A stretch of 64,000 bases of DNA from Candidatus Hydrogenedentota bacterium (GTDB lineage: Bacteria > Hydrogenedentota > Hydrogenedentia > Hydrogenedentales > CAITNO01), in assembly GCA_012730105.1 (NCBI GenBank), contig JAAYBJ010000134.1, positions 1-64,000 on the forward strand. The letters run 5' to 3'. The notes under the pieces are model-generated. The model had not been told where the DNA came from. It saw only the letters and a list, made by a program, of their open reading frames with translations, and made no database searches. Below, one piece after another: positions 767 through 55,975 of the stretch. How positions within the stretch are numbered: the first letter of the stretch is position 1; each line of letters starts with the position of its first letter. The position numbers and the translations under genes are program-made.

Positions 767-872
767 TTAAGAAATGTGAACTTGCATCGCCCACGCGGCC
801 CAGCCCGGGTAACCGGTAATCCTGCTGAGGCCGTTGTGTAGCAACGTCTATGGTAGAGAAGGAATCATTCTC

Positions 873-3800: not shown

Positions 3801-6086
3801 GGCTATTACGGATACACTGCGGGGTGGTGTCTTCCTCTCTACGTCTATGGCGGTGCGGGCGGGGCGGGCACACGCGGGGGTAGAGGAGGTATTGGCGGCG
3901 ATGGCGGTTCCAGCGGCACGTCCGGCGCCGGCGGCGACGGCGGCCTGGGTTCGCCGGGCATGGTGAAACTGCACGGTTCCGTGGTGCTAGCCGGCGGCGC
4001 GGTCAATTGCGACAACCATACGGCAAGCACGGACAACGGGCTGCGCGGCCGTGCCACGCTGATCAGTAACCTGGCCAATCCCGCGATGCCCGCCTTCTCG
4101 GACGACTACCTGGCGGGCACGACCACTAATAATGCTTGGCTGCGCTCCAGCGCGCCTTATAACACCGTGCTGCAGATACCGATGCTGCCGCACCTGGAAG
4201 GCGGCGTGGCCACGGGCGGGTACACCCTGGGGGACTTCTGGAACAGGCCGGCATTCAAAAATCTGCATACGGGTATGCCTTCGCTGGAAGTGGTAAGACT
4301 GGGCGGCGGGAATTCCCCCTTCCTGAATTTCGACCAGATCTTTATCGTAAACAATTCCGGCAAACTCATTAATGCGGTTACCGTAACCATTCAGGGCTAT
4401 GCGCCGTACCTGCTCGGCACGATGGCCGCAGGTTCCATCTGGACCACCACGGTTCCTTCGGGCGCCAGTGTTAGCGTTTCCGCGCCACTCTTCGTTGCCC
4501 TCGCGGAGGAAGAGATATACACCTATGTCGGAGAACCCTTCTCCCTGAACGCGGTAACGGACGGCGGCATTACGCCCATGACCTATCGCTGGACGCGAAG
4601 TGGTTCCACCGTCCAGGAAGGCGGCGCTTTCTCTTACGAAATCGCTAACGCGGCAGTAACTGATAGCGGCCTTTACAGGGTCACCGCAACGGATGCTCTC
4701 GCACAGGTCGCGTCCAGCACGCCGGATGTGCCCGTGTACGTTGCGGACCCGATTGTTATCACCCAGCCGCCGATGTCAGCCACCGTGCCGGTAAACGGCG
4801 CGCATGTGTTTACCGTAATCGCCTCTGGCGGGCACGGGGCGCTGCAGTATGACTGGCGCAGAAACGGCATCAGCCTGGGCGCGCCGGACCAGCCGTTCCT
4901 GACGATCGATCCCGTCGTCGCGGCAAGTGAAGGCGATTATGACGTGGTGATTACCGACATGCTGGGCGTTGCGCCCCAGGGAAGGGTCATTAGTCCATCC
5001 CCGGCCGCCGCGCTTACCGTGTCCTACCCGTTGACGGTGACCGGGCCGGAAGAAGTGGTTGCCTACGACGATGAAGGGGAATCCGTTTTCACCATCGGCG
5101 TAACGGGAGGCGTGGAGCCTTATATCTATGAATGGCGCTACAACAATGTGGCCCTGCCGCCGGCCCAACAGCCCAACGGCCCGGTGCTGACGCTTGCCGC
5201 GCCCTTGGCGGCCCAGGCGGGCCCCTACCGTTGCATCGTAACCGACGCGGCCCTTCCCCAGGCATCGGAACCTTCGGAAACAGCCCACTTGTACGTGTAC
5301 CCCCGGCTTGCTATTACAGTACAGCCTGCGGGTGGCAGTTATACCACGGGCTCGACAGCAATTCTGGCTGCCACGGTGACCGGAGGCGTCCCGACACTGA
5401 CCTATATCTGGCGCAAGGACGGTCAGCCCCTCCCGGTGGAAGAACAACCCCAGAATAGCATGCTGACCCTCACTGATCTCCAGTTCGGCGATGCGGGCGA
5501 CTATGAACTGGTGGTATATGACAGCCATACCGATGATATCACCTCCCAGCCCGCGACCATCACCGTAGTCTCTCCGCCTGAAGGCGAGGGAGAGGGTGAG
5601 GGCGAACCGCCAGTCGAAGGGGAAGGAGAACCACCCGTCGAGGGCGAAGGAGAACCACCCGTCGAGGGCGAGGGCGAGCCGCCGGCCGAAGGAGAAGAGG
5701 AATTCTCCCTGACATACACGGGACCCAACCCTGTCACATCACAAACAGGGGAACCTGTCGAAATCACGGTCATCCCGATCAACAGTTCGGGCGAGGTCGC
5801 GTTCCAATGGTACCGCGTTATGGAGGATATGTCCCTGGTCCTGCTTGCGGGACAAGAAGACGACTCCTTGACATTCGATTCCGTCTTGCCCGAAGACGCC
5901 GGCAACTATCAGTGCGTGGCAACCGACAACATCGCAGGCACGGCACAGTCACCGATAATCACCCTGGTGGTATTGCCGGGTGTGCCCCTGGTTACTCCGG
6001 CGATTTTATTCATGGCGGTATTGGCCTTGATTCTTGTCGGTTTCTGCAAAATAAGATGGCGGAAACACCTCGATTCAACATGCTGA
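873..6086 (+). CDS. giant secreted SGNH/GDSL hydrolase with Gly-rich region, Ig-like repeats and C-terminal membrane anchor
   Basis: 1737 aa. ATG 873 is chosen over an in-frame TTG at 834 because AGAGAAGGA (855-863) lies 9 nt before it and a clean signal peptide follows (hydrophobic LVILLLLIGIAP, cut near ANAAA). Residues about 30-330 form an SGNH hydrolase: GDS at 38-40 (nucleophile Ser), GND near 125, and a DPIH catalytic pair near 303. Then come two Ig-like/cadherin-like segments, a roughly 370-residue Gly/Ala/Thr/Ser-rich stretch (about 658-1030), four or more Ig-like modules, an acidic Glu-Gly-Glu-Pro-Pro-Val linker (about 1570-1609), a last Ig-like module, and one membrane helix (about 1706-1724) followed by basic KIRWRKH. 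Esterase or carbohydrate-deacetylase activity at the cell surface is inference; SGNH substrates cannot be read from sequence. Confidence 0.8.
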   Translation: MSHRLYSVKQRFYCLVILLLLIGIAPNAAAVRRILLVGDSWTQWPWDMGSFQSVLNYNFGTDTYQVEGSYTALGGTTAASWASNAVPPEGTFPSPPGHTNMPSLDRITWSLNTWPTIDIIHLSITGNDMWAWRANWTTEQTQALYDSIQANLQTVVSWIRTNHPHVKILLCGYDYLNITETCTYGMQEFSWDAALLSSTLGLTPGDFNQNRANNQQINQFFAGFGPREISIAQATPRFDFIQNWGNIQYRAGYLNSYGLLWPAQSVPFPGAAPAYNPLPGGDVSWGTPSFYMNKVDGDQRDPIHLSSDGYKLLFDNCLMQYYAGWLLDSTAPVVQSINRVHPSPTDLAEVAFTVTFSEGVRGVDASDFQLNDTAASGAYIVSVSGAEDTAVRTVTVNISGAPDGTLRLDFLDDGSVYDKNWNAIGGEGAGNGNYTSGQSYLIDRGDPAAIITPGIPEPTLLSSVPFSVSFNKSVTGFTATDIALNVVTGAGSAQVINFAGSGAAYSFDILVTRSQTITVAISIPAGAAFDASNRPNLPAAYADGADNAYTFEYISGPGDPGDLYVSDGSLGVLSVSAGNSITINTGTTPPTLQVNSNPPINGQVMTVDGGNVAKFNFASVEVPAGVTVSVSGNRPLVLTASGDMTWNTSLDVSGAVPGRAGGGAGGGGGTGGSGGTGGTGGTANGAGGSVASGGVGGTLANGGSGTNGSARNSGTAGSNGTIGITGSYGAYGLGGTQGFGAQGTAGSAGNRGNQGTNASIVNGGTAGVGGGGGGTGGAGQVAPTNGTAGNAATATGSAGGNASSGSSGGNGSNGGAGGSAQFTAAPDSLLLAAGHGGGGGGGGGGGAGGQGGGKGGGGSGGAGGGGGGMSWTTWWTQCTPVDAPGGQGGNGGTGGAGGNGGQGGTALTGATGGNGGEGGGAVVLASRGLLSFGGVVNVSAGAPASGGTQSAAQAGNGGTDPGNNYGNPGTATSGGTGYYGYTAGWCLPLYVYGGAGGAGTRGGRGGIGGDGGSSGTSGAGGDGGLGSPGMVKLHGSVVLAGGAVNCDNHTASTDNGLRGRATLISNLANPAMPAFSDDYLAGTTTNNAWLRSSAPYNTVLQIPMLPHLEGGVATGGYTLGDFWNRPAFKNLHTGMPSLEVVRLGGGNSPFLNFDQIFIVNNSGKLINAVTVTIQGYAPYLLGTMAAGSIWTTTVPSGASVSVSAPLFVALAEEEIYTYVGEPFSLNAVTDGGITPMTYRWTRSGSTVQEGGAFSYEIANAAVTDSGLYRVTATDALAQVASSTPDVPVYVADPIVITQPPMSATVPVNGAHVFTVIASGGHGALQYDWRRNGISLGAPDQPFLTIDPVVAASEGDYDVVITDMLGVAPQGRVISPSPAAALTVSYPLTVTGPEEVVAYDDEGESVFTIGVTGGVEPYIYEWRYNNVALPPAQQPNGPVLTLAAPLAAQAGPYRCIVTDAALPQASEPSETAHLYVYPRLAITVQPAGGSYTTGSTAILAATVTGGVPTLTYIWRKDGQPLPVEEQPQNSMLTLTDLQFGDAGDYELVVYDSHTDDITSQPATITVVSPPEGEGEGEGEPPVEGEGEPPVEGEGEPPVEGEGEPPAEGEEEFSLTYTGPNPVTSQTGEPVEITVIPINSSGEVAFQWYRVMEDMSLVLLAGQEDDSLTFDSVLPEDAGNYQCVATDNIAGTAQSPIITLVVLPGVPLVTPAILFMAVLALILVGFCKIRWRKHLDSTC
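5581..5700 (+). repeat. in-gene GAGGGCGAAGG tandem repeats encoding the Glu-Gly-Glu-Pro-Pro linker
   Basis: Short in-frame repeats of GGCGAGGG and GGAGAACCACCCGTCGA type encode GEGEGEPPVEGEGEPP-like units. They separate the Ig-like modules from the C-terminal anchor segment and may vary in length between strains by slippage. Confidence 0.75.
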
Positions 6087-6125: not shown

Positions 6126-6424
6126 AAGAGAAGGGGTGATAAGAGTACCTGTCCGTTTTTGCCTCTGCAACAACCCTGAAAGTGGCGATTTACAGGCATC
6201 CGACCTTGTGTTGTGGGGTTACCCGTCTCCTGTACCCGGTCTTGCGCCGTAACACCGCAGGCGGGGTAAAACGGAATACGCTTTTCTTGAAAATACAGAC
6301 CCCCGTGCTCTGTCACGTTTGACTCTATGCATGCTTAATTCGATAGAATGAAGGGGACGTGAGGCAACAGCTTCTCCGCCTCATAAAAACAGTTAAGCGG
6401 GATCTCCCGGCAAAAAGGATGCAC
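6126..6424. other. intergenic stretch, no gene seen
   Basis: No credible reading frame or strong promoter found. AAAAGGA at 6412-6418 is the ribosome binding site of the following epimerase. Confidence 0.5.
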
Positions 6425-7498
6425 ATGAGCGTAATTATTGTGACCGGTTCCGCAGGGCTGATCGGCTCATCGGCCGTGCGCCTGTTCGCGGCGCAGGGAT
6501 ACACGGTGGCGGGCGTGGACAATGACATGCGCGCCTACTTTTTCGGTGAAAGCGCGTCGACCCGCCCCATGGCCGAAGAACTCGAAAGGGAAATTCCGGG
6601 GTACCGGCACGTCTCCGCGGATATCCGCGATTACGAAAGCCTTTCGGGCCTGTTCCGGGAATACGGCAGCGACATCCGGGCGGTGGTGCATACGGCGGCG
6701 CAGCCCAGCCACGACTGGGCGGCGCGGGAACCGCATACCGACTTCGGCATCAACGCCATGGGCACGCTCAATCTCCTGGAGCTGACCCGGCTGCACGCCT
6801 CGGACGCGGTCTTTATCTTCACCAGCACCAACAAGGTCTATGGCGACCGGCCCAACGACCTGCCACTGGTGGAAGAGGAAACGCGGTGGGAAGTGGACCC
6901 CGCCCACCCCTATGCCGCCGAAGGCATTGACGAATCCATGAGCATCGACCAGTGCAAACATTCGGTTTTCGGGGCCTCGAAAGTCGCCGCGGACGTCATG
7001 GTCCAGGAATACGGGCGGTATTTCGACATGAATACCGCCGTCTTCCGCGGCGGGTGCCTCACCGGTCCTGGGCATGCCGGCGCCGAACTGCACGGGTTCC
7101 TGGCCTATCTCATGAAATGCGCGGTCACCGGGAATACCTATAATATCTTCGGGTACAAGGGCAAGCAGGTGCGCGACAATATCCACGCCTCGGACCTGGT
7201 CGCCTGCTTTGACGAGGTGGTGAAAGCGCCCCGCGCCGGCGAGGTGTACAACATCGGCGGCAGCCGGTTCAGCAACTGTTCCCTGCTCGAGGCGGTCGCC
7301 CTGTGCGAGGAAATCACAGGCAACAAAATGGCCACCACCTACACCGAAACCAACCGCATCGGCGATCATATCTGGTGGATCAGCGATACCCGCAAGTTCA
7401 AGACCCATTACCCGGAATGGCGCCAGCAGTATGACGTGAAAGCGATCCTGGTGGAGATTTATGACGATATCCTTCGTCGTGCCCGGCAAGCGTCGTGA
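6425..7498 (+). CDS. NAD-dependent epimerase/dehydratase, CDP-paratose 2-epimerase-like
   Basis: 357 aa extended short-chain dehydrogenase (Rossmann fold). Start ATG 6425, 6 nt after AAAAGGA; ATG 6419 is also in frame but too close to it. TGSAGLIG at the N-terminus is the NAD-binding glycine motif, and [10 protein letters not shown] carries the Ser/Thr of the catalytic site. The usual Tyr-x-x-x-Lys pair reads FGASK (F182, K186), so the catalytic Tyr is a Phe. Strings such as [19 protein letters not shown] and YNIGG are those of CDP-paratose/tyvelose epimerase-like sugar-nucleotide enzymes. The stop overlaps the start of a glycosyltransferase, so a role in polysaccharide or glycolipid synthesis is likely. 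The exact nucleotide sugar is unknown. Confidence 0.85.
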
Positions 7499-8268
7499 TG
7501 CGAAACAAACTTCTATATTCCATTCTGATCCCCGCCTACAACGAGGCGGAAAACCTGCCGCGCACGCTGGAGCCGCTGGCTGCCGCCCTGCGAGGCGAGG
7601 GCATCCCCTTCGAACTGCTGGTGGTAAATGACAACAGCACCGACGCTACCCCGCAGGTGTTGGAGTCGCTGGCGCCGTCCTACCCGGAACTGCACGTCGT
7701 CACGAACACACCCCCCGGCGGCCTCGGCCGGGCGATACGCTGCGGCCTGAAGCATTTCAAAGGCGATGTGGTCGCCGTGGTCATGGCGGACAGTTCCGAC
7801 AGCCCGGAGGACGTGGTCGCCTGCTACCGGAAAATCGAGGAAGGTTATGACTGCGTCTTCGGGTCCCGGTTCCGGAAAGGCAGCAAAGTCTCCCAGTACC
7901 CGCCCGTCAAACTTTTCTTCAACCGCATCGTCAATTTCGCCATGCGCGTCCTGTTCCTGACCCGTTTCAACGACTTGACCAACGCCTTCAAGGTGTACCG
8001 CCGCCATGCCATCGAGAGCATCAGCCCCCTGCACGCGGCTCATTTCAACATCACCATTGAGATGTCCCTGTCCTGCCTGATACGCCGCTTCAAGATCGCG
8101 GAAATCCCCATCTCCTGGAGCGGGCGCACCTGGGGCCAGTCCAACCTGCGCCTCCGTGAAATGGGGCGTCGATACCTGTGCACCCTCCTCATGATCTGGT
8201 TCGAGCGCGTGCTCATCCTGGACGATCTCCTGCTCGAAACCCGGCCAAAACCGGAAGACGGGGAATAA
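7498..8268 (+). CDS. family 2 glycosyltransferase (polyprenyl/dolichyl-phosphate mannosyltransferase-like)
   Basis: 256 aa. ATG 7498 shares a base with the preceding TGA (TGATG), which implies translational coupling to the epimerase; a GTG at 7495 is also in frame. GT-A fold markers: SILIPAYNEAENLP at the N-terminus, NDNSTDAT (nucleotide-sugar Asp), and a MADSSDSPED metal-binding region. There are no C-terminal membrane helices, unlike long DPM synthases. It probably moves one sugar from an NDP-sugar to a polyprenyl phosphate or other lipid carrier at the inner face of the membrane. Donor and acceptor are not readable from sequence. Confidence 0.85.
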   Translation: MRNKLLYSILIPAYNEAENLPRTLEPLAAALRGEGIPFELLVVNDNSTDATPQVLESLAPSYPELHVVTNTPPGGLGRAIRCGLKHFKGDVVAVVMADSSDSPEDVVACYRKIEEGYDCVFGSRFRKGSKVSQYPPVKLFFNRIVNFAMRVLFLTRFNDLTNAFKVYRRHAIESISPLHAAHFNITIEMSLSCLIRRFKIAEIPISWSGRTWGQSNLRLREMGRRYLCTLLMIWFERVLILDDLLLETRPKPEDGE

Positions 8269-8351
8269 GCACAGGGACAAAATGGAGCCGCAAACTAGTG
8301 TAGTGAGTCATGCTAATGACCACTTATGCTGAGTCAATTTACTACTGATCT

Positions 8352-8408
8352 TTGTGGTGCGGGCTTCCAGCCTGCCCGCCGGAGCAGGCAAGATGCCTGC
8401 ACCACAAT
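8352..8408. repeat. palindromic intergenic repeat (GTGGTGCGGGC / GCCTGCACCAC)
   Basis: TTGTGGTGCGGGCTTCCAGC at the left is mirrored by a right arm ending GATGCCTGCACCACAA. An inner GCCTGC / GCAGGC pair adds a second stem. It lies in the 256-bp gap between the glycosyltransferase and the DNA glycosylase, where it could fold as an RNA hairpin or be a REP-type element. Loose TGAGTCA-like words flank it on both sides. Confidence 0.6.
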
Positions 8409-8525
8409 AACTTACAAGAATGCTCCTTAAGTTGCCTTGATTATGAGTCAATAAAATAGCGCCTAAAGCCGGCCGTGTATACTACTCCCGGGAAGTGCCT
8501 GACAACTTTTAGTAAAGTGCAGTTT

Positions 8526-9227
8526 GTGAATAAAAGCCAAGAATTAAACGACATGCTCGCCCGGCTGTCAACGCATTACGGGCCGACTGGCTGGTGGCCG
8601 GGCGATTCGCCCTTTGAAGTGGCCATCGGCGCCATTCTCACCCAGAATACGGCATGGTCGAACGTTGAAAAGGCCATTGAGCAATTGAAGAAAGCGCGCC
8701 TGCTGACCCCCCGGCGCATGCTGGACGCGCCGCAGGAAGCCCTGGAGACGGCAATACGCTCGTCCGGGTATTACCGCCAGAAAGCGGAACGGCTGCGGAT
8801 TTTTTGTGATTACCTGGGGAGACACTACAGAAATAGCATGGCGCCCATGGCGGCGCGTCCCCTGGCAGCATTGCGGGAGGAACTGCTGGACCTGAAAGGC
8901 ATCGGCCCGGAAACGGCGGATGATATCCTGCTGTATGCCTGCGACAAGCCCATATTCGTTGTGGACGCTTACACCCGGCGCATTTTTCATCGTTGCGGCT
9001 TGACGCCGGAAACCATCCCCTACGACACCCTGCAGCAATTGGTGCATGCCGCCGTTCCGCCCAATGTACCTGTCTATAAGGAGTTTCATGGACTGATCGT
9101 GTGGACAGGCAAGGACTTTTGCCGGAAAGCGCCCCGCTGTGCAGGCTGTCCCTTGGCCCGGCGCGGGAATTCCGGGGGGGCTTTCCCATGCGACATGCGG
9201 AAAAAAACACATCCTGTTGTTAGATAA
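8526..9227 (+). CDS. endonuclease III-superfamily DNA glycosylase (HhH-GPD with 4Fe-4S), MagIII-like
   Basis: About 233 aa from GTG 8526; ATG 8553 is an alternative, and neither has a strong ribosome binding site. WWPG..PFE..IGAILTQNTAW near the N-terminus is typical of the endonuclease III-related family. The helix-hairpin-helix is LKGIGPE (GIGPE at 125-129), and the catalytic Asp is D147 in VVDAYTRR. The Lys needed for AP-lyase chemistry in Nth is E129 here, as in monofunctional alkyl-purine glycosylases such as MagIII. C-terminal Cys spaced C-x5-C-x2-C-x12-C can hold the Fe-S cluster. Expected role: excision of damaged (probably alkylated) bases without strand cutting. Confidence 0.8.
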   Translation: MNKSQELNDMLARLSTHYGPTGWWPGDSPFEVAIGAILTQNTAWSNVEKAIEQLKKARLLTPRRMLDAPQEALETAIRSSGYYRQKAERLRIFCDYLGRHYRNSMAPMAARPLAALREELLDLKGIGPETADDILLYACDKPIFVVDAYTRRIFHRCGLTPETIPYDTLQQLVHAAVPPNVPVYKEFHGLIVWTGKDFCRKAPRCAGCPLARRGNSGGAFPCDMRKKTHPVVR

Positions 9228-42014: not shown

Positions 42015-45000
42015 ATGATCCCGAGAATTCAGGCGTCTCGTACCGCGTGGGTGCTGTTTTGCTGTTTGTGCACGGCGCTGGTTTCCATCGCCGGCGCCAC
42101 CGGCAGCGGCCCGCAGGCGGACCCCGAGGCCGTCAGTGCCCTGATTCACACGATGAACGGCCCGGAGGCGCAGGAAGCGCCCCTGGTCTACAGTGATGAA
42201 GGCGGTTTTATCCGCTTCCTGGGGGCGCCGCCGCAGGCGCGCTTCATTGCGCCCCCCGTGTCGGGGAAGTCCCTGCCGGACGCCGGACAGGTGGCGCTGG
42301 AGTTTATGTCCTACCACGGCAAGGCCTTCGGGCTGGACGCAAACACTATGGAATTGCGGCTGCGCCGAACCGTTGCGCAGGGAAACCTTAGCTTTGCGCG
42401 GTTGGACCAGTACCTGCTGGATAGCGATCAGGCCTACCAAATCTACGGAGCGCAGGTGGTTGTCCAGTTGGATGAGACGCTGAATGTCCTTAATGTAAAC
42501 GCGGATATCCTGCGGGACACCCGGGAACTCGAAAAAAGCTTTGATTCCCTCACGCCCGTGCTGAGCGCGACTCTGGCCGTGGAACGGGCCATCGCGCAGA
42601 ATGCCGCCATTTCAGGTGTTGACGCGGCACTGTATACGGCCGTTGAGGAACCCGTTCTCGTGATTTTCGCGCCGGAGGTCTTTTCCATGGCCGGCGTCGC
42701 CTGCCTGGCATGGAAGGTGAATCTGGGCGTGGATGCGCCGAATGTGCAGCGCATGACATCACTGATCAATGCGCAAAGCGGTGAATTGCTGCTGCGCCAC
42801 GCCGACCAGCCCGCGGCGCGCCGGCGGGAGATCTACGACACCAAGGGAACGGAAGATCTAGTAAACGCGGAACTGGTGCGCAGGGAAGGCGATCCCCCGG
42901 TGGGTAACGAGAACATTGACACCGCCTACGACTATTTCGGGGACTGCTACAATTTCTACATGAACCAGCACGGGCGGGACAGCTATGACAACCAGGGCAG
43001 TCCCATTCGGGCCTACGTCAACCATCCCATGCAAAACGCCTACTGGGATCTCGGGTTGCATATCATGGTCATCGGCGATTTGTTCCTTTCGGATGACGTT
43101 GTCGCCCATGAGTTTACCCATGGGGTCACCGAGTTTGACTCAGACTTGATTTATTATTCCTATGCGGGGGCGATTACTGAAATGTATTCCGACCTCGGCG
43201 GCGAGTTCGTGGATCTGACCAACGGGCGTGGCAATGATTCTCCTGAAGTGCGCTGGTATCTGGGAGAGGACATGCCGTCGCTGATACAGGACGAGCGCGG
43301 CCTGGACGAGGATGAGGAGGAGGATGACGATACCCGTGTGAATGCCTCCGATGCCCCTCCGGGCGCGATACGGTATATGAAAGACCCCACGATGCTCCTT
43401 GGCGGGTGGAGAAGCCCGGACAGGCTGACGAGCCCGTATCTTTGGGATCCGTTCTCCTTGTTGGATCTGGGCGGCCTCCACTTCAATTGCGGTATCGGCA
43501 ACAAGCTGATTTACCTGTTAACGGACGGCGACACCTTTAACGGTCAGAATGTGTTTGGCATGGGGATTCCCAAAGTTGCGGATCTTTTCTATGCCGCGCG
43601 GCCCATGCTGTCCGGTTCCGCCGATTATTTCGACCTCTACTATGCCTTGCGCGCGGCAAGCGTTGCCCTCAATTATTCCTCCGCGGAACGGGCGAATATC
43701 ATTGCCGGGGCCCGGGCCGTGGAAATTGAGCCTCCGGACGCGGACGGCGCGTCCATCCTGGGACTGCGCAATTTCCGGGCGCTGCCCACGCTTACCACCA
43801 TCGGGAAGCCCGTTGTGGGGCTGAAGTGGCAAAACCCCAGTTTCGCGACAACCATGAGCATACCGGTTCAAATCACCCTGTACCGCAGTGTGACCGATTT
43901 TCCAACGGGACCGCTGGACGGCATGCTGCTTCCCGTGGACAGCTCGGAATCGGCTTACCTGGATCAGGACGTGCGCGCCGGCGTCACCTATTACTACACG
44001 CTTATCGCCCAGGTCGGCACGCTCTATTCGCAGCGGTTGCATGCCAAAGCGCTCGCCGGCAATTACGGGATGAACGTGTACACGGAGGTGTTCGGGGATG
44101 ACCTGTATACAGGCTCCAATCCCTTCGATCTTTCCTTCTCCCAGCTTAGCTTCCGGCCTGTTATGGCGCCGCCGCCCGGAGGCGACGATCCGTATCTTAG
44201 TTCGATGGACTTCTCCGATTATGAGGTCACCTATACCCCCGGCGTATATGACCTCCCCGTGCAACGGAATGAGGGAGGCGGCGCTTATAATCTGACGTAT
44301 ACGGATGACGGCATTTTCCCCGTAATGCTGGGCGACCGCGCGTTCCCCTTCTTCGGCGTTCCCTACAGTGAAATTTTCCTGTCTTCAAACGGCTATGTCG
44401 TCTTCGCGGATATTGAAACCCTGTATACCGGAGCGGATCTGATCGCCACGCTGGACATGCCTACATTGGCCGCCCATTTCGCGCTGCCCCGCATTTCCTT
44501 TATGTTCACGGATCTTGCCCCGCACATCGGCGGCGAAGTCTGGGCCAAGATTATGGATGACCGTTTCGTGGTTACCCTGGACAACGTGGCTATAAAGCCG
44601 GGCGCCTATGAATACGTATTGAATCCAGACCGGGTGACCGCGCAGATGGAACTCTTTTACAGCGGCCATATCCGCATCACCTATCTTGGCGCCGGCCTGT
44701 CCACGGGTATTATCGGCCTTTCCGACGGGCGCGGCGTGCCCGAAGAGCCTTCCACCGTTTATGGCGGCATTCTGGACGGTTTTCACTGGGTGGATTTTTC
44801 CGGACTGGCCGACACGCCTTTCCGCATGAGCCTTAACCCCGTGAATACCCAAATTGTATCGGGTGGAGAAGCCATGTCCTTCAATATTACGGCCGAACTG
44901 CCTCCGGGCACGACCGGCGCACCGGCCTTCGTGGCCGAGTGGGACGGCCCCGGCGCCGTGCCCTTCGCCGATAACGGCGATGGCACGGGAACCTTCTCCT

Positions 45001-45854
45001 GGCAGACCGCCTATGAAGATGCCGGCGCGTATACCGTGCGCATCATTGCCGAATTCGAAGGCCACTATGTGTTTCAGGATATTCGGCTGGTTGTAAACCG
45101 CGGTTACAATGTAAAACCCACCGCGCGTAACCTGCGCCTGTCCACGAACTTGACCGGCGAAGATCCGACGACGAACCGGTCCGTTCCCGTCGGTACGCCG
45201 CTTAACGCCGCGTTTGAGTATTATCACCCCTACGCGTCCGAAGTACCACTGCTCTACGGTCCGGGACCTTCCACGGTGTACTGGTTCCGGAACGGGCAGG
45301 TCGTTTCGGCCTTTACCAATGCAATGGGCGTCCCGTCCAACATTGTCAGGGCGGATGATGTGTGGTATTTTATGGTCGTTCCCCTGAGTATCGGCGGCAT
45401 CAAGGGCGACCCGGTTATTTCGCCGATAATCAGCGTGCTCGGGGTGCCCATAGTCGAGGAAGTCTTCCCGAACCAGGGATTGACTATTGGCGGAGACCGG
45501 ATTACCATACGGGGCAAGGGGCTTTCCGCTGTGACCGCCGTGACGTTCGGCGGGGTTCCGGGAAGCGGCATCCAGATATCCAGCGGCACGGAACTGTCCG
45601 TGGTTACGCCCATCCACCCGGCGGGTACCGTGACCGTGGCCGTGGAAACGGTCGGCGGCATCGGCCGCAAGGTAGACGCCTTTACTTTCGTGGGTGACGT
45701 CGATGATCCCGAGGGCGACAAGGCGCGCAGCTTCCTGGGATGCGGCCCGAGGGACAGCAGCCCCGTGTCGGTGCTATATGATTTTCTGCCTGCGGCCGCG
45801 GTGTTGCTCTTGCTCGCCGCCGGAAGCATGGTAAGAAGGCTTCGGATGAACTAA
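42015..45854 (+). CDS. secreted M4-family (thermolysin-like) metalloprotease with C-terminal anchor
   Basis: 1279 aa, ATG 42015, GGGAG about 7 nt upstream. Signal peptide, then an FTP/PepSY-type propeptide (to about 260). The zinc site is VAHEFTHGVT (His365, Glu366, His369) with Glu389 in GAITEMYSD (Thr replaces the usual Asn before Glu), and a GLHFNCGIGNK histidine matches the transition-state His of thermolysin. So the protease is expected to be active. An insertion of acidic residues lies near 430-441. The later half has Ig-like/fibronectin-like modules and an IPT/TIG domain (PNQGLTIGGDRITIRGKG). The C-terminus is CGPRDSS, a hydrophobic helix, then RRLRMN, a tripartite anchor or sorting signal. 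Confidence 0.85.
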   Translation: MIPRIQASRTAWVLFCCLCTALVSIAGATGSGPQADPEAVSALIHTMNGPEAQEAPLVYSDEGGFIRFLGAPPQARFIAPPVSGKSLPDAGQVALEFMSYHGKAFGLDANTMELRLRRTVAQGNLSFARLDQYLLDSDQAYQIYGAQVVVQLDETLNVLNVNADILRDTRELEKSFDSLTPVLSATLAVERAIAQNAAISGVDAALYTAVEEPVLVIFAPEVFSMAGVACLAWKVNLGVDAPNVQRMTSLINAQSGELLLRHADQPAARRREIYDTKGTEDLVNAELVRREGDPPVGNENIDTAYDYFGDCYNFYMNQHGRDSYDNQGSPIRAYVNHPMQNAYWDLGLHIMVIGDLFLSDDVVAHEFTHGVTEFDSDLIYYSYAGAITEMYSDLGGEFVDLTNGRGNDSPEVRWYLGEDMPSLIQDERGLDEDEEEDDDTRVNASDAPPGAIRYMKDPTMLLGGWRSPDRLTSPYLWDPFSLLDLGGLHFNCGIGNKLIYLLTDGDTFNGQNVFGMGIPKVADLFYAARPMLSGSADYFDLYYALRAASVALNYSSAERANIIAGARAVEIEPPDADGASILGLRNFRALPTLTTIGKPVVGLKWQNPSFATTMSIPVQITLYRSVTDFPTGPLDGMLLPVDSSESAYLDQDVRAGVTYYYTLIAQVGTLYSQRLHAKALAGNYGMNVYTEVFGDDLYTGSNPFDLSFSQLSFRPVMAPPPGGDDPYLSSMDFSDYEVTYTPGVYDLPVQRNEGGGAYNLTYTDDGIFPVMLGDRAFPFFGVPYSEIFLSSNGYVVFADIETLYTGADLIATLDMPTLAAHFALPRISFMFTDLAPHIGGEVWAKIMDDRFVVTLDNVAIKPGAYEYVLNPDRVTAQMELFYSGHIRITYLGAGLSTGIIGLSDGRGVPEEPSTVYGGILDGFHWVDFSGLADTPFRMSLNPVNTQIVSGGEAMSFNITAELPPGTTGAPAFVAEWDGPGAVPFADNGDGTGTFSWQTAYEDAGAYTVRIIAEFEGHYVFQDIRLVVNRGYNVKPTARNLRLSTNLTGEDPTTNRSVPVGTPLNAAFEYYHPYASEVPLLYGPGPSTVYWFRNGQVVSAFTNAMGVPSNIVRADDVWYFMVVPLSIGGIKGDPVISPIISVLGVPIVEEVFPNQGLTIGGDRITIRGKGLSAVTAVTFGGVPGSGIQISSGTELSVVTPIHPAGTVTVAVETVGGIGRKVDAFTFVGDVDDPEGDKARSFLGCGPRDSSPVSVLYDFLPAAAVLLLLAAGSMVRRLRMN

Positions 45855-48649: not shown

Positions 48650-49579
48650 ATGCGTTTCTTCAATCTGTTACTTGTTCTGACCTGTGTGTTGGTAACCGGG
48701 TGCGCCACGTTTCGGGCGGGAGCGCCCGAGGGGGTGGTGGATGTCATCGCCCATCGCGGTGCGAGCCAGGATGCGCCTGAAAACACACTGGCCGCGTTCC
48801 GCGTTGCCCGGGACATGGGTGCGGACTGGTTTGAACTGGATTGTCATTTGACGCGGGACGGCGAGGTGGTCATCATCCACGACAGCGAGCTGGAACGGAC
48901 CACGGGTGACAAGGGCATCGTTGAGGACAGTGACCTGGCCTATATCAAAGGGCTTGACGCAGGCAACTGGAAAAACCCGAAATACGCGGGGGAGCGTATT
49001 CCAACCTTTGCGGAATCCCTTGATTTCGCGAAAGGCACCATCGGCGTGTATGTGGAAATCAAGAACAGCGCCGATGATACCGCGCTGATGCAGCAGATAC
49101 TTCAGGAGACGGATTCCTGCACAGTGATGACGCCGGACTGTTCACGGAAGATTATGGCCGCCATCGAGGCGAGCGGCACGCGCAACCTCGAATTGACGCG
49201 TAAGACGATCGCCCAGATTCGGGAGCGCGGCATGGAACGGGATATCGTCATACAGTCCTTTTCCCCGATTATCTGCGCCATCGCCAAAATTGAAGCGCCG
49301 GAGATGCGCGTTGAGGCCCTTTCCGGTGTGAAGATGGATGAACACGACATGTGGGAACTGGTGACGCGCTGGCTGTTCCTGCTCGATCTAGACGGGCTCA
49401 ACATCAGTCATGAAAGCATGACACCGGGCCGCATGGCAACCATTAGACAGTCCGGCAAGAGTGTCGCCGTATGGACGGTGGACGATCCCGAAATTATGAA
49501 GCGGGCGGTCAGCCTCGGCGCCGACGCCATCATTACCAACTGCCCCGACCGCGCCCTGCGCGCGCTGAACCGCGGCTGA
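48650..49579 (+). CDS. lipoprotein glycerophosphodiester phosphodiesterase
   Basis: 309 aa, ATG 48650, AAAGGAGG upstream. Lipobox LVTGC at residues 15-19, so anchored in a membrane. GDPD motifs in full: VIAHRGASQDAPENTLAAF, WFELDCHLTRDGEVVIIHD, YVEIKNSAD, and LGADAIITNCPDRAL near the end. It hydrolyses glycerophosphodiesters to glycerol-3-phosphate, scavenging phospholipid head-group products. The first family member here is at 20440-21384; that one is soluble-secreted and has HRC instead of HRG. Confidence 0.9.
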   Translation: MRFFNLLLVLTCVLVTGCATFRAGAPEGVVDVIAHRGASQDAPENTLAAFRVARDMGADWFELDCHLTRDGEVVIIHDSELERTTGDKGIVEDSDLAYIKGLDAGNWKNPKYAGERIPTFAESLDFAKGTIGVYVEIKNSADDTALMQQILQETDSCTVMTPDCSRKIMAAIEASGTRNLELTRKTIAQIRERGMERDIVIQSFSPIICAIAKIEAPEMRVEALSGVKMDEHDMWELVTRWLFLLDLDGLNISHESMTPGRMATIRQSGKSVAVWTVDDPEIMKRAVSLGADAIITNCPDRALRALNRG

Positions 49580-49701
49580 CTGTTCGTGCGCGGGCTTGAT
49601 ATGCTATCGGCCGGAGTGGACAATAATAAACAGTCTCATGCACGGGCACTTAGAGGCGCTTAACAACTATATCCGGTCGTATAAACACCCAGGGGGGTGC
49701 C

Positions 49702-50397
49702 ATGAACACAGTAAGAGCTGTTGTTGCCGTTTATGTCTTTCTTGTTATCTGCTGCGGCATGCCGTCAGGCGCGGAAGACGCGATGGTTTATCCGACTCTT
49801 CCGGGCACAAGCATCCGGGACCATTCCAAGCCGGGGACGCGCATCGACGGAGATATGCTGTATCCGACCCTGCCGGGCACCAGCATTCGGGACCATTCCA
49901 AGCCGGGAGCGCGCATCGACGGGGATATGCTGTATCCGACCCTTCCGGGCACGAGCATCCGCGACTATTCCAAGCCGGGAGCGCGTATCGACGGGGACAT
50001 GATTTACCCAACCCTTCCGGGCACGGGCATTCGGGACCATTCCAAGCCGGGGACGCGTATCGACGGGGACATGATGTATCCGACCCTGCCGGGCACAGGC
50101 ATTCGGGATCATTCCAAACCGGGGGCGCGCATCGAGGACGACATGATTCGCCCGACGCTGCCGGGCACAAGTATCCGCGACCATTCCAAACCGGGGAAAC
50201 GTATTGACGCGGAGGAGCCGCCTGCGCGCTCAAAGACAGACCTCTGGCATCATTACAGCACACAACCGGCGCCAGAAACCGCTCCAAAGACCGCGACGCC
50301 GCCGGAACCGTCCGAGCCGAATGTAAATAATTCACAGTGGAACAAGACAAGAGGCGTTTCCCAATCCCCACATGTTAAACGGGAAGATACGGAGTAG
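49702..50397 (+). CDS. secreted protein of six 24-residue repeats (YPTLPGTSIRDHSKPG type)
   Basis: 231 aa from ATG 49702 with GGGGGG nearby. Signal peptide (VRAVVAVYVFLVICCGMPSG) cut near residue 24. Then six near-identical units of 24 residues, consensus Y-P-T-L-P-G-T-S-I-R-D-H-S-K-P-G-A-R-I-D-G-D-M-L, starting at bases 49789, 49861, 49933, 50005, 50077 and 50149. The sixth starts with Arg in place of Tyr and ends early (KRIDAEEPPARSK). The C-terminal 60 residues are Pro/Lys/Glu-rich and poorly ordered. I do not recognise the family; I vaguely recall similar YPT-PGT-RD-SKPG proteins elsewhere but cannot confirm. Function unknown; a structural or surface-binding role is a guess. Confidence 0.75.
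   Translation: MNTVRAVVAVYVFLVICCGMPSGAEDAMVYPTLPGTSIRDHSKPGTRIDGDMLYPTLPGTSIRDHSKPGARIDGDMLYPTLPGTSIRDYSKPGARIDGDMIYPTLPGTGIRDHSKPGTRIDGDMMYPTLPGTGIRDHSKPGARIEDDMIRPTLPGTSIRDHSKPGKRIDAEEPPARSKTDLWHHYSTQPAPETAPKTATPPEPSEPNVNNSQWNKTRGVSQSPHVKREDTE
49789..50220 (+). repeat. six 72-bp tandem repeats within the repeat-protein gene
   Basis: Period exactly 72 bp, all in frame, highly similar at the DNA level (for example TATCCGACCCTGCCGGGCAC in units 2 and 5). There are no spacers, so this is a coding tandem repeat and not CRISPR. Copy number may vary between strains. Confidence 0.9.
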
Positions 50398-50518: not shown

Positions 50519-50550
50519 ACATTGTTTGAACAGAAACCGGAGTGTTTGCC

Positions 50551-51483
50551 GTGGCTGTCCGCAACTGGTATGCAAAATGGTGGGTTATAACGATTGTTGT
50601 CGTGGTTCTGCTCGCGACGGGGTGGCTGTGGGCGCGGGCGCGGCGCGGCATAGAAGTCCTGGTGGACGAGGCGGCATTTCAAAACGCCCCGGTGGCATCG
50701 GACTCGGCGGAGTTCACCATAGTGACATACAATGTGCAGGCACGCCCTCTGTTTGACGACTCGCGGCACAAATTTAACTTCATATCCCCCCTCCTGAACC
50801 GTTTTGACATTTGCGCCTTTCAAGAATGTTTCAAGGACCATCCTCGCTTGTGGGCGGCGGCAGAACACCCGGTGAAAATTTATCATGCCGCCCTGAAGCA
50901 TCCCTTTGAAGTGGCGACCTCCGGCTTGTCCATCCTTGGCAACTATCCCCTCCGCGAAGTCGACGGCATTCATTTTGAGGATGAGGGGGACGGTCAGAAC
51001 TGGCCCGCCTCCAAGGGGGTGCTGATGGCCGGCTTTGACGTGCACGGCATGCCGGTGGACGTCTATACCACCCATATCGCCGCAGGAAAGAAACCCGCGA
51101 CCATGCGCGCGAAATTCGCGCAGGGCGATGATATTATCCGCTTTATCGGTGAAAAATCCCCCGCGGACCATTCGGTGATCCTCCTGGGCGATTTCAATAT
51201 GCGTCCCAGCCGCGGGCCGGAAGACCTGGAGAAGAACAAGGACAATCCCAAGGTAACGGGATTCGACCGGCTGGTGGAAATCCTCGGCCTTCGCGACGCT
51301 TCCGATGAAATCAACGGCCCCACGGGCACCGAAATCGACCGCATCCTCTTCCGGCCGGGGAAAGGTCACGTCATGCGTCCCTTGAGCTGGCAGCATGACG
51401 ACCCGGCGTTCTATGACCCCGCCGGCAACCCGCTCAGCGATCATGAGCCCGTGTTTGTGCGTTTTCAACTGGCAAAGGAATAG
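50551..51483 (+). CDS. endonuclease/exonuclease/phosphatase (EEP) family hydrolase, membrane-anchored
   Basis: 310 aa. GTG 50551, 8 nt after GGAG, is preferred to GTG 50542. An N-terminal helix (VITIVVVVLLATGWLWA) anchors the enzyme. EEP active-site motifs: VTYNVQAR, FQECF, VYTTHIAAGK, LLGDFNMRPS, TEIDRILF and LSDHEPV (His/Asp pair). The family spans sphingomyelinases, inositol polyphosphate phosphatases and nucleases; the substrate is not determined by sequence. With an extracytoplasmic site it could act on phospholipids or extracellular DNA. Confidence 0.85.
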   Translation: MAVRNWYAKWWVITIVVVVLLATGWLWARARRGIEVLVDEAAFQNAPVASDSAEFTIVTYNVQARPLFDDSRHKFNFISPLLNRFDICAFQECFKDHPRLWAAAEHPVKIYHAALKHPFEVATSGLSILGNYPLREVDGIHFEDEGDGQNWPASKGVLMAGFDVHGMPVDVYTTHIAAGKKPATMRAKFAQGDDIIRFIGEKSPADHSVILLGDFNMRPSRGPEDLEKNKDNPKVTGFDRLVEILGLRDASDEINGPTGTEIDRILFRPGKGHVMRPLSWQHDDPAFYDPAGNPLSDHEPVFVRFQLAKE

Positions 51484-52746: not shown

Positions 52747-53160
52747 TTATGCCCGGCCGTTCAGACGCTGTTCCCAATCGTAATTCCGGGAGGTAACCGT
52801 GTTTTCGAGGCGCTGGATGCGCTGTTCGAGGTGGTCATAGGTGCGTTTTAGCCGCAGGAGCGCCATGTGGCGTGAGGCGGTGTAGGATTCGTAAAACTCT
52901 GCGTCAATATCGCTGTCCAGGGGCAGGATGGGCTCTGCGCGCATCAGCAAGGCCGCAAGCAGGTAACCCGCGAGCATGGGCCACACGCCGGTAAATAGCG
53001 CGAGAACAATAAACAGCAGGCGCGTCCCCATAACTGAAAAACCAAAATGTTCCGCCAAGCCCCGGCACACGCCGAAGAAGATGCCGTTGCGGGAACGGTA
53101 AGGGCCGCTGCCGTAAGGGGTTCGGGCGCGGCGGGCGTTTTGATAATAGCCGGTATTCAT
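52747..53160 (-). CDS. pspC: PspC-domain protein (first)
   Basis: 137 aa. The N-terminal PspC domain (YRSRNGIFFGVCRGLAEHFG then a two-helix membrane region, MGTRLLFIVLALFTGVWPML) is followed by a cytoplasmic coiled-coil-like tail (RLKRTYDHLEQRIQRLENTV). The ATG overlaps the stop of the PspB-like gene (ATGA), so it is last in the minus-strand psp operon. PspC senses or relays membrane stress to PspA/PspF. Confidence 0.85.
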   Translation of the reverse strand: MNTGYYQNARRARTPYGSGPYRSRNGIFFGVCRGLAEHFGFSVMGTRLLFIVLALFTGVWPMLAGYLLAALLMRAEPILPLDSDIDAEFYESYTASRHMALLRLKRTYDHLEQRIQRLENTVTSRNYDWEQRLNGRA

Positions 53161-53390
53161 TGCCGCACCCCCTGTTCCCGTTCGAGCAGGAGGGTTTCGA
53201 GGGCCTCCACCCGCTGTTCCATCCGCACGAGCCCCTGATGCATTTCCTGGATAAGCCGCGCCTCTTCCGCGCTCGCGTTGCGGACGCCTCCGCGACCGAC
53301 CAGTTTTACGATGGTCCAGCAGATGATGAACAGCCCGGCGAGCAGGCTGCCGAAAATAATGAGCGCCGTCAGAAAAATCAGCGTGTTCAT
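53157..53390 (-). CDS. PspB-like small membrane protein
   Basis: 77 aa: one N-terminal membrane helix (LIFLTALIIFGSLLAGLFII), then charged, helical residues with heptad-like EEARLIQEMHQGLVRMEQRV. Size and layout match PspB (75 aa in E. coli), the partner of PspC, but sequence identity is too weak to be sure. It sits exactly where pspB is expected, between two PspC genes. Confidence 0.65.
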   Translation of the reverse strand: MNTLIFLTALIIFGSLLAGLFIICWTIVKLVGRGGVRNASAEEARLIQEMHQGLVRMEQRVEALETLLLEREQGVRQ

Positions 53391-53431
53391 GTCGGAATTC
53401 CTTCTACTGTCATCCTCGCCGCAGGCGGCGT

Positions 53432-53800
53432 TTACGGGGTTTCACGAAGGCGGGCGTCCCAATCGTCCATGTCCCGCGCGGCCGCCGCTTCCACGCGGCG
53501 CAGACGCGCGTCCAAGCCGTCCGCGGCGCGCCGGCAGGCACGCGCGGCGCCGTACTGCGCGTCCATGGCATATTTGCGGTAGGCCGGTTCCCACGGACCC
53601 GGTTCGCGCTTGAGCAGCAGCGCGGCGAGCAGGTAGGCCGCGCCCACCGGCCAGAACCCGGTCACGACAAAAGCGATGAGCGTGACAACCCGGGTCCAGA
53701 ATACAGAAAGGGCGAATCGTTCCGCAAGCCCGCGGCAAACGCCAAACAGCAGCCCGCGCCGCGAGCGGTACAAGGCCCGGTGTCCATCAGGGTAAGGCAT
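53432..53800 (-). CDS. PspC-domain protein (second)
   Basis: 122 aa; same design as 52747-53160: ALYRSRRGLLFGVCRGLAER then membrane helices (VVTLIAFVVTGFWPVGAAYL) and a basic/acidic helical tail. About half the residues of the core match the other copy, so the two are paralogs within one operon. It follows pspA by 34 nt. Confidence 0.85.
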   Translation of the reverse strand: MPYPDGHRALYRSRRGLLFGVCRGLAERFALSVFWTRVVTLIAFVVTGFWPVGAAYLLAALLLKREPGPWEPAYRKYAMDAQYGAARACRRAADGLDARLRRVEAAAARDMDDWDARLRETP

Positions 53801-53834
53801 CTGTCATTCTCCTTCTTTGGGGTTACAGCCTGTG

Positions 53835-54512
53835 TTAAAGTGTCGTCGAGGAACGGCCCTGCTTTTTCTCCATGAGCGCGGCCAGTTCCTTTTCAATTTC
53901 ATCGTCCTGTTCCAGGGCGGCAAAAGACTCTTCCAGGTTGGGTTTCCGTGCGATGTTGACCACTTCCGCCTCCGCCTCCATGCGGTCGATGCGCTGCTCG
54001 AACAGGTTGAAGCGGCGCACCGCGTCCGAAGTTTCGTAACGGCGGATATCCGTCTGGGCGCGTTTCTTGTCCTCGGCGTGGTGGTGCCGTTGAATGAGCA
54101 CCCGCTGTTTTTCGCGCGCTCCCGCCAGTTTTTCCTCCAGCTGGCGGATGTCCTCCTGGTACTGGTTCACCACTTCGTGGGCGTCCCGCTGCTCCCGTTC
54201 CAGCGCCTCCGCCCGCTCGATATAGCGTCGCTTTTCCAGCAGCGCCTCCCGGGCGAGCTCCGGGCGGTCCCGGTCCACGGCCAGCGCGGCCTTGTCGCCC
54301 CAGGCACGTCCCAGGGAGGCCGCCGCGGCCAGGTCGCGGCCGATACGTTTTTCGGTCGCCATGGCCCCCGCGCAGTTCGCCTTGATTTCGATCAGGGTGT
54401 CTTCCATTTCCTGGATGATCATCTTGACCATTTTTTCAGGATTTTCCGCCTTGTCCAGCATGGCGTTGATATTCGAGCTGATAATGTCGCCGAGTCGTGA
54501 AAAGATACTCAT
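53835..54512 (-). CDS. pspA: phage shock protein A
   Basis: 225 aa from ATG 54512, with AGGAG 7 nt upstream. MSIFSRLGDIISSNINAMLD is the amphipathic membrane-binding N-terminus of PspA/IM30, followed by a long coiled coil and KMIIQEMEDTLIEIKANCAG. Length fits the family (about 222 aa). It binds damaged inner membrane and inhibits PspF. First gene of the minus-strand unit pspA-pspC-pspB-pspC, transcribed from the sigma-54 promoter at 54573-54588. Confidence 0.93.
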   Translation of the reverse strand: MSIFSRLGDIISSNINAMLDKAENPEKMVKMIIQEMEDTLIEIKANCAGAMATEKRIGRDLAAAASLGRAWGDKAALAVDRDRPELAREALLEKRRYIERAEALEREQRDAHEVVNQYQEDIRQLEEKLAGAREKQRVLIQRHHHAEDKKRAQTDIRRYETSDAVRRFNLFEQRIDRMEAEAEVVNIARKPNLEESFAALEQDDEIEKELAALMEKKQGRSSTTL

Positions 54513-54572
54513 GGGTCTGCTCCTGTCCGGCGGGAAATGCCGCCCTGTTGAGGTTAATTCCGTGACTGTAAA

Positions 54573-54588
54573 AGCAACCTGCGTGCCA
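54573..54588 (-). promoter_or_regulatory. sigma-54 (-24/-12) promoter of the psp operon
   Basis: Read on the minus strand: TGGCACG-CAGG-TTGCT. This is the sigma-54 consensus (TGGCACG-N4-TTGCW) in full. The GC of the -12 element is at 54575-54574. Start near 54562 gives about 50 nt to the pspA ATG. The activator PspF is encoded divergently at 54929-55975. Confidence 0.9.
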
Positions 54589-54727
54589 ATCTGGCTGGGA
54601 ATGGCTATCTGGCGTGAAATCAAGGCATTAGGTGATCTTGACGGGATTGTTTTGAAGTTTGAATGTGGTTATATTTGCTAGATTTTCGCTTTCTTTACCT
54701 ATACTGGTTATTTATGCTATCTTTTTT

Positions 54728-54888
54728 GGTGGACGGAATGGACGGAATGGACAATATGGACGTAAGGACCACAAACAACAGGGTAGACGGGCTTGCCTTG
54801 TCCACTAAGCCCGTATCATCGCGCAAAACCGCCTTGACTGTTCTTGTTGTTCAGTCCATTCTGTCCATGCTGTCCATAGTGTCCATTC
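54728..54888. repeat. TGGAC/GTCCA phased inverted repeat between pspA and pspF
   Basis: GGTGGACGGAATGGACGGAA then TGGACAATATGGACG (54728-54762) faces CAGTCCATTCTGTCCATGCT then GTCCATAGTGTCCATT (54853-54888), four cores on each side spaced 9-10 bases. A perfect hairpin ACGGGCTT/AAGCCCGT (54787-54794 with 54807-54814) lies between the arms. The phasing is close to one DNA turn. The unit also occurs at 6091-6125 away from psp, so it is a dispersed repeat; whether it also works as the PspF enhancer is open. Confidence 0.65.
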
Positions 54889-54928
54889 GATTCTTTGAAT
54901 GTATCGCTAACACTTAAGGGAAAAACCT

Positions 54929-55975
54929 ATGGTTCAACCAAGCGCTTCGTCGGACTTCCGGGGGAATGTGGAAGCCCTGGGAGTATCGGAAGCCTTTCTG
55001 GATTTTCAGGAGCGCTTGTCCCGGGTGGCGGTGGTGGACCGGCCGGTGCTGCTGGTGGGGGAGCGTGGCACGGGCAAGGAACTCGCGGCGAAACGGTTAC
55101 ATTTCCTGTCCCGCCGTTGGGAATGCCCCCTGGCCGCGTTAAACTGCGCTGCCCTGGCGCCGACCCTGATAGAGTCCGAGTTGTTCGGGTACGAACCGGG
55201 CGCATTCACCGGCGCGGCCGCGCGCCGACACGGGCGCTTTGAGGCCGCCGACGGGGGCACGCTCTTCCTGGACGAGCTGGGCAACATTCCCCTCTTCGTG
55301 CAGGAAAAGATCCTGCGTGTGGTGGAATACGGTGTTTTCGAGCGGGTGGGCGGTTCCGAACCGATTTCCGTGGATGTGCGCATCATCGGGGCCACCAATA
55401 CGGACCTGCTCCGACTGGCGGCGGAAGGGCGGTTCATGCGTGACTTGCTTGACCGTCTTTCCTTTGAGGTCCTGTTCCTGCCGCCCCTGCGGGAACGGCG
55501 CGAAGATATCCCGTTGCTGGCCAACCATTTCGCCTCGCGGATGGCCATGGAGCTCGGCCGCACGGAAATGCCCGTCTTCAGTCCCGCCGTGGAGGCGCAG
55601 TTACTGGACTACCCCTGGCCGGGCAACGTCCGGGAACTGAAAAATGTGGTGGAACGCGCCGTGTACCGGTCCGACGGCGCGCGGGTCGATGCGCTATGCT
55701 TCGAACCTTTTGTTTCCCCGTATTCCCCCCCGTCGACCGTACCGGAGCCGGTGTCACCACGACCGGATTTCGTGAAGACGGACGTCTCGAAGGTTGCCAC
55801 GGGCAACTTTTCACAGGCGGTCGCGGCCTACGAACTGACTTTGTTACAACGGGCGCTGGAAAAATGCAGGTTTAACCAGCGCGAAACAGCCCGGTACCTC
55901 GGCCTAACCTATCATCAATTCCGCGGTCTGTACCGGAAATACGGGGATCGCCTGCAGACTCGGAGTCAGGCCTGA
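54929..55975 (+). CDS. pspF: sigma-54-dependent transcriptional activator PspF
   Basis: 348 aa, ATG 54929, AAGGGA 8 nt upstream. No N-terminal sensor domain, as in E. coli PspF. AAA+ features: Walker A GERGTGKE, sigma-54-contact loop GAFTGA, Walker B LFLDELGN, and a sensor region GATN. The C-terminus has a Fis-type helix-turn-helix (QRETARYLGLTYHQFRGLYR). It drives the divergent psp operon and is inhibited by PspA. Confidence 0.92.
   Translation: MVQPSASSDFRGNVEALGVSEAFLDFQERLSRVAVVDRPVLLVGERGTGKELAAKRLHFLSRRWECPLAALNCAALAPTLIESELFGYEPGAFTGAAARRHGRFEAADGGTLFLDELGNIPLFVQEKILRVVEYGVFERVGGSEPISVDVRIIGATNTDLLRLAAEGRFMRDLLDRLSFEVLFLPPLRERREDIPLLANHFASRMAMELGRTEMPVFSPAVEAQLLDYPWPGNVRELKNVVERAVYRSDGARVDALCFEPFVSPYSPPSTVPEPVSPRPDFVKTDVSKVATGNFSQAVAAYELTLLQRALEKCRFNQRETARYLGLTYHQFRGLYRKYGDRLQTRSQA

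Follow-up and report, generated by a model that had tools for sequence, protein, structure and literature searches.

An exported six-unit repeat protein from a Hydrogenedentota genome and its relatives in distant phyla

The window, a 64,000-nucleotide stretch of a Candidatus Hydrogenedentota contig, carries a gene for a protein of 231 residues that begins with a predicted signal peptide, continues as an array of 24-residue units and ends in a Pro/Ser/Thr-rich tail (Table 1). The open reading frame and its six in-frame units of 72 bp are exactly as an earlier note on this DNA had described them, both in the ORF list and in TRF, which returns a 72-bp period with 5.7 copies, 0% indels and a score of 524, by far the highest in the window (a 216-bp TRF row is the identical array). 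The six unit starts, YPT or RPT, fall at residues 30, 54, 78, 102, 126 and 150, a constant step of 24 residues (72 bp). The description of six near-identical units holds, with two minor amendments: unit 6 is diverged (it begins with RPT, and its pS against other units reaches 0.68), and a tail of about 60 residues lies outside the repeats. This tail is predicted to be disordered, with AF2 pLDDT below 50 across most of residues 172–224, and the mature chain is strongly hydrophilic (GRAVY –1.03) with a high Pro/Gly content. The same note had called the protein secreted, in agreement with a signal peptide predicted both from hydropathy (mean KD of the hydrophobic core 3.1) and from an N-terminal layout common to every well-delimited relative.

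Table 1. Positions in the window of the repeat gene, its parts and the two flanking genes
Feature	Position	Strand	Evidence or remark
Repeat gene, predicted exported 24-aa-repeat protein, 231 aa, ATG start, TAG stop	49702..50397	+	ORF list; relatives in other genomes; frame-specific purifying selection
Ribosome-binding site AGGGGGGT, good, 3 bases before the repeat-gene ATG	49691..49698	+	Direct sequence reading
Predicted signal peptide, residues 1–24, probable cleavage MPSGA/EDA (slash marks the site)	49702..49773	+	Hydropathy; N-terminal layout of relatives
Repeat unit 1, YPTLPGTSIRDHSKPGTRIDGDML	49789..49860	+	TRF; unit alignment; codon comparison
Repeat unit 2, YPTLPGTSIRDHSKPGARIDGDML	49861..49932	+	TRF; unit alignment; codon comparison
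Repeat unit 3, YPTLPGTSIRDYSKPGARIDGDMI	49933..50004	+	TRF; unit alignment; codon comparison
Repeat unit 4, YPTLPGTGIRDHSKPGTRIDGDMM	50005..50076	+	TRF; unit alignment; codon comparison
Repeat unit 5, YPTLPGTGIRDHSKPGARIEDDMI	50077..50148	+	TRF; unit alignment; codon comparison
Repeat unit 6, RPTLPGTSIRDHSKPGKRID, diverged 20-residue end unit	50149..50208	+	TRF; unit alignment; codon comparison
C-terminal tail, Pro/Ser/Thr-rich, non-repeat, about 60 residues	50209..50394	+	Composition; AF2
GDPD-family lipoprotein gene	48650..49579	+	Pfam PF03009, E 2.7e-44; not a conserved partner
Membrane-anchored EEP hydrolase gene	50542..51483	+	Pfam PF03372; not a conserved partner

The family had not been recognised from the sequence, and our profile searches of Pfam, NCBIfam, PHROGs, PADLOC and PDB agree in yielding no credible match. 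Pfam gives no match for the window protein, and neither it nor any of 15 two-unit segments matches MORN; the matches in NCBIfam, PHROGs and PADLOC are weak, cover sub-stretches only and are not credible across the array; and the best hits among PDB sequences (phmmer E 1.6, profile E 0.2) are not credible. The individual matches to an NCBIfam deacetylase, a PHROGs 30-aa entry, PADLOC Csm3 and a PDB epimerase were discarded as low-scoring and confined to sub-stretches, and the exact strings RDYSKPG and YPTLPGT do not occur in the literature searched. On the evidence of its sequence, the window protein belongs to an undescribed family that is unnamed in the libraries searched. RTX calcium-binding repeats were rejected because the GGxGxDxUx nonapeptides are absent from the sequence, calcium binding via DGD because relatives do not keep the DGD found in the window units, and ice binding, which the Thr pattern might suggest, because MAGs from rumen and goat abomasum are among the members.

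A scan of genome contigs returned ten loci, among them ones in Hydrogenedentota and Riflebacteria, in Methyloversatilis and in one MAG each of acidobacterial and betaproteobacterial origin. We counted as family members proteins with at least two units of the PTxxGTxIRDYSKPG hairpin repeat that keep T3, G6 and R10-D11 at a spacing of 24 or 28/29 residues, with the array directly after a predicted signal peptide; the window protein has six such units at a spacing of 24, in that position by hydropathy and layout. The array is present in five of 68 Hydrogenedentota genomes: G000 with six and G025 with ten 24-aa units, G011 (from the family of the window genome) and G006, both of one genus, each with an array of six 29-aa units, and G001, where the unit number is unreadable because the assembly breaks within the array. 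Four of 40 Riflebacteria genomes carry it, with five 29-aa units in each; the Methyloversatilis group, whose family we take to be Rhodocyclaceae, has two units 28 residues apart in all seven species seen; and in a further betaproteobacterium, G413, the array comprises five 24-aa units with a consensus of their own. In other groups the array is rare, with one MAG among 396 Acidobacteriota genomes and, in 399 evenly drawn Pseudomonadota, one credible match, the seed genome itself; the acidobacterial MAG and the phage contigs are weaker single cases. Two matches are weaker than the Hydrogenedentota, Riflebacteria, betaproteobacterial and phage-contig members. Contamination of MAGs could account for single cases such as the acidobacterial one, though not for clades of several species. 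The well-delimited relatives consist of a signal peptide and then the array, with little else attached; in Rhodocyclaceae there is a short spacer.

The relatives in distant phyla and on a phage contig, together with the 29-aa unit form, go beyond the earlier note and are, as far as sequence comparison tells, members of the same family. The possible copy-number variation raised there is borne out between genera (Hydrogenedentota have 6, 6, 6 and 10 units, Riflebacteria have 5, Rhodocyclaceae 2 and G413 5) and not within Riflebacteria or the Rhodocyclaceae group, where the unit number is constant across species and the array is therefore not fast-varying. The repeat gene is an accessory gene, sporadic across phyla, and its product is dispensable for any core process because of this sporadic occurrence.

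Several observations made along the way concern individual loci. In G001 the break in the array lies between the ends of L007 / L081 and the starts of L004 / L082, and in the last part of contig C32 both the array and the GDPD gene contain an in-frame stop, owing to either assembly error or decay. In L009 (5926–6957) the six units are followed by a second, distinct tandem repeat, LNLDVRRRSENKFEVHDRETGNSYEVTTRGNRAEVYDVNSGQ, in two copies. A possible distant relative, G308 (L036, locus match at 1501–1605), has units like IYEVSPSTGNVQYHKPSYKIEGDR in a stop-bearing stretch whose start is not clear; it was not used as a family member, and its units may link the window family to a wider hairpin-repeat group. 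Matches of a constructed GDRVYQTDSYGN-type consensus to E. coli plasmids (∼35% identity, one inspected case running antisense to an annotated gene) and a Haloglomus plasmid match (27.5% identity, E 0.3) were dropped, as were weak genome matches in G214 and G1185, where the DNA reads as another gene or a chance stretch.

Alignment of 52 units gives the consensus YPTlPGTsiRDYSKPGyrIe, in which T3, G6 and D11 are invariant and P2 and R10 nearly so (92% each), followed by S13 (88%), G16 (85%) and P15 (83%). The 24-aa and 29-aa units align without gaps save for five residues of the D-x-x-G-N type after the 'RIE' strand. This insert falls exactly at the hairpin turn predicted by AF2, where the window protein reads TRID-GD-MLYPT and the Riflebacteria protein YKIET-DKKGN-KVAYPT, and a conserved 13-residue connector, xxGTxIRDYSKPG, sits between the predicted hairpins.

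Codon-by-codon comparison of the six unit cores gives an in-frame pN of 0.065 and a pS of 0.417, and the two wrong frames reverse the ratio (pN/pS 0.190/0.081 and 0.171/0.031). Of the 21 variable core columns 15 are at third codon positions (binomial P = 4e-4), and between species the pN/pS ratio is 0.28 in Riflebacteria and 0.27 in the Rhodocyclaceae group. This excess of synonymous change, confined to its own frame, shows that the repeat ORF is translated and constrained and no product of chance, a point on which the earlier note had let its reading depend; as the motif also recurs in very distant bacteria and in a phage, the repeat is a real, selected protein module. The recent expansion proposed there finds no support in this comparison: 24–68% of synonymous sites differ between units (mean 0.42), which speaks against a very recent expansion of the array and means that the likeness of the units reflects purifying selection rather than youth. 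Gene conversion may homogenise the units as an additional process; most units of the window, G011 and G413 arrays are closer to one another than to units elsewhere, whereas in Riflebacteria units match by position across species.

We modelled two divergent members, from the window and from Riflebacteria, with AF2, and in both each unit is predicted to form one beta-hairpin followed by the conserved 13-residue connector, with pLDDT of about 87–95 over the window repeats and 88–94 over the Riflebacteria repeats (both runs used one set of eleven sequences and are not fully independent). The five window models scatter (mean pLDDT 48.9–75.5), and the five Riflebacteria models agree with each other (mean pLDDT 81.9–84.2, pTM 0.70). 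AF2 is known to yield confident but unreal beta-solenoids for perfect repeats, whereas families of diverged repeats are modelled consistently across methods (Pratt et al. 2025, PMC11795689); the window units are near-perfect repeats, and those of Riflebacteria are far from identical. As the two topologies agree and the length difference falls at the predicted turn, a rod with one hairpin per unit is the likely structure, judged from these models. Foldseek searches of PDB with both models gave no match with E <1e-3 and a best TM of about 0.3; the top match of the Riflebacteria model is T. brucei MORN1 (PDB 6t68, E 3.9e-3, TM 0.24), and MORN proteins are also among the viral matches of the window model.

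The earlier note saw no clear pathway in the neighbouring genes, and the fact that relatives do not keep the GDPD/EEP linkage agrees with this. If the repeat protein were an accessory of the flanking phosphodiesterases, perhaps as a scaffold in the periplasm for the turnover of lipid head groups, this would fit the GDPD – repeat gene – EEP order that the window has in common with same-genus G001 (where, across two contigs, it reads M4 protease – bifunctional nuclease – CoA transferase – GDPD – array – EEP), as well as the GDPD paralog near the repeat gene in G011. However, that paralog is not the best match of its genome to the window GDPD; same-genus G003 has orthologs of both enzymes on separate contigs with the array beside neither; the EEP orthologs of family members G007, G008, G013 and G015 stand without it; and in other clades no GDPD/EEP genes adjoin the array. 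We consider such an accessory role very improbable and reject the functional link, as the order is not kept in relatives. Because no neighbour recurs across clades outside the genus to suggest a pathway, the function of the array is presumably carried by its own product. Elsewhere in the window, at 52747–55975 and 2.3 kb downstream of the repeat gene, the minus strand carries a phage-shock / membrane-stress cluster of one PspA/IM30 and two PspC-domain genes, which adjoins a divergent sigma-54 activator (PspF-like). A 1279-aa exported protein (42015–45854) combines thermolysin (M4) domains with a TIG domain, ends in a hydrophobic/basic C-terminal stretch and is kept in G001 at 57%. A 1750-aa protein (834–6086) has an SGNH-like start and a long Gly-rich middle; its 'EGEGEPPV' linker, encoded by DNA with 24-bp repeats, precedes a transmembrane and basic C-terminal end.

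Copies on viral contigs raise another explanation: the protein could be cargo that derives from phages or faces them, an envelope protein of the moron type that alters the host surface and is moved between phyla by phages. IMG/VR contigs L018 and L019 carry a three-unit copy with a signal peptide ∼0.9 kb upstream of a terminase-like gene, viral contig L033 ends in a broken copy of the array, and the sporadic spread over phyla would suit such transport. Against this, L018 and L019 share one copy and count as a single observation, 50,697 phage records gave no match, additional viral scans found nothing, and no phage genes were recognised in the window between 42 and 57 kb, so that we regard phage cargo as quite unlikely. 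(The terminase-like large subunit of L018, at 6216–8738, is split by what is probably an intein, with Pfam PF14890 scoring above its cut-off.) An array that is largely disordered, an exported flexible Pro/Gly-rich spacer or low-complexity stalk in which regularity would only set length and charge spacing, is also unlikely in our judgement. The composition and hydrophilicity of the mature chain, its Pro-rich, predicted disordered tail and the bias of AF2 toward ordered models of near-perfect repeats would all be compatible with it; yet T, G and D are invariant and R and P near-invariant across phyla and across both length forms, length polymorphism of the units is confined to the predicted turn, purifying selection on the array is strong, and a stalk would have no anchor to span from.

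The reading that we prefer, although we give it somewhat less than an even chance, is that the protein is exported and, self-contained, forms a rod of hairpin repeats with a multivalent role in structure or binding. Sec export would remove the signal peptide and leave a mature protein that is roughly a row of near-identical modules, each with a short beta-hairpin (xRID-GD-MIYPT) and a connector (LPGTsIRDYSKPG) that would pack on the next hairpin. Such a row would make a short stiff rod displaying one conserved Thr/Arg/Asp/Tyr surface per unit, in the periplasm or at the cell surface, and the tail, predicted to be disordered, would serve as tether or spacer. Beyond what the signal peptide indicates, we infer the location outside the cytoplasm, and the multivalent role is our best guess; against it, no ligand, linked gene, or attached catalytic or binding domain points to a job. 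A bolder version, which we hold doubtful, would make the family a new cross-phylum class of exported hairpin repeats with a fold of its own, whose units bind a common envelope polymer, whose length is set through unit number and turn, and which is partly spread by phages.

What appeared to be an orphan now belongs to a family whose unit is defined, occurs in two main lengths and is present two to ten times per member. This family is a ready set for testing how hairpin-repeat folding depends on turn length and copy number, and it allows the confident repeat models of AF2 to be checked on natural, imperfect repeats. That it occurs sporadically in far-apart phyla and on a phage contig points to a portable trait of the envelope for which current annotation has no name.

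Among known repeat systems, beta-solenoids resemble the family in that short regular units stack to an elongated all-beta model, but the models obtained here are hairpins with long loops and have no significant PDB match, and AF2 is unreliable for this class. The choline-binding cell-wall repeats (CW_binding_1) are hairpin repeats of about 20 residues in exported proteins. By this general description they would be alike in being exported short hairpin repeats, whereas the window family matches nothing in Pfam, lacks a conserved Trp or GW motif and carries no catalytic domain. A further parallel in layout is with MORN arrays such as T. brucei MORN1 (6t68), rows of units of roughly two dozen residues with a hairpin and a connector each, as the models predict for the window family. 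In a MORN unit the two strands have 6 residues each, the turn has 5 and the connector 6 (PMC7725318); the strands and turn are much like the predicted 29-aa form, in contrast to the connector, which has about 13 residues in the window family. The GxG and YEGEW motifs of MORN are absent from the unit profile, and MORN proteins are cytoplasmic whereas the window family is predicted to be exported. Although the family fails these sequence features and we do not class it as MORN, its architecture may, judged from the models, be MORN-like.
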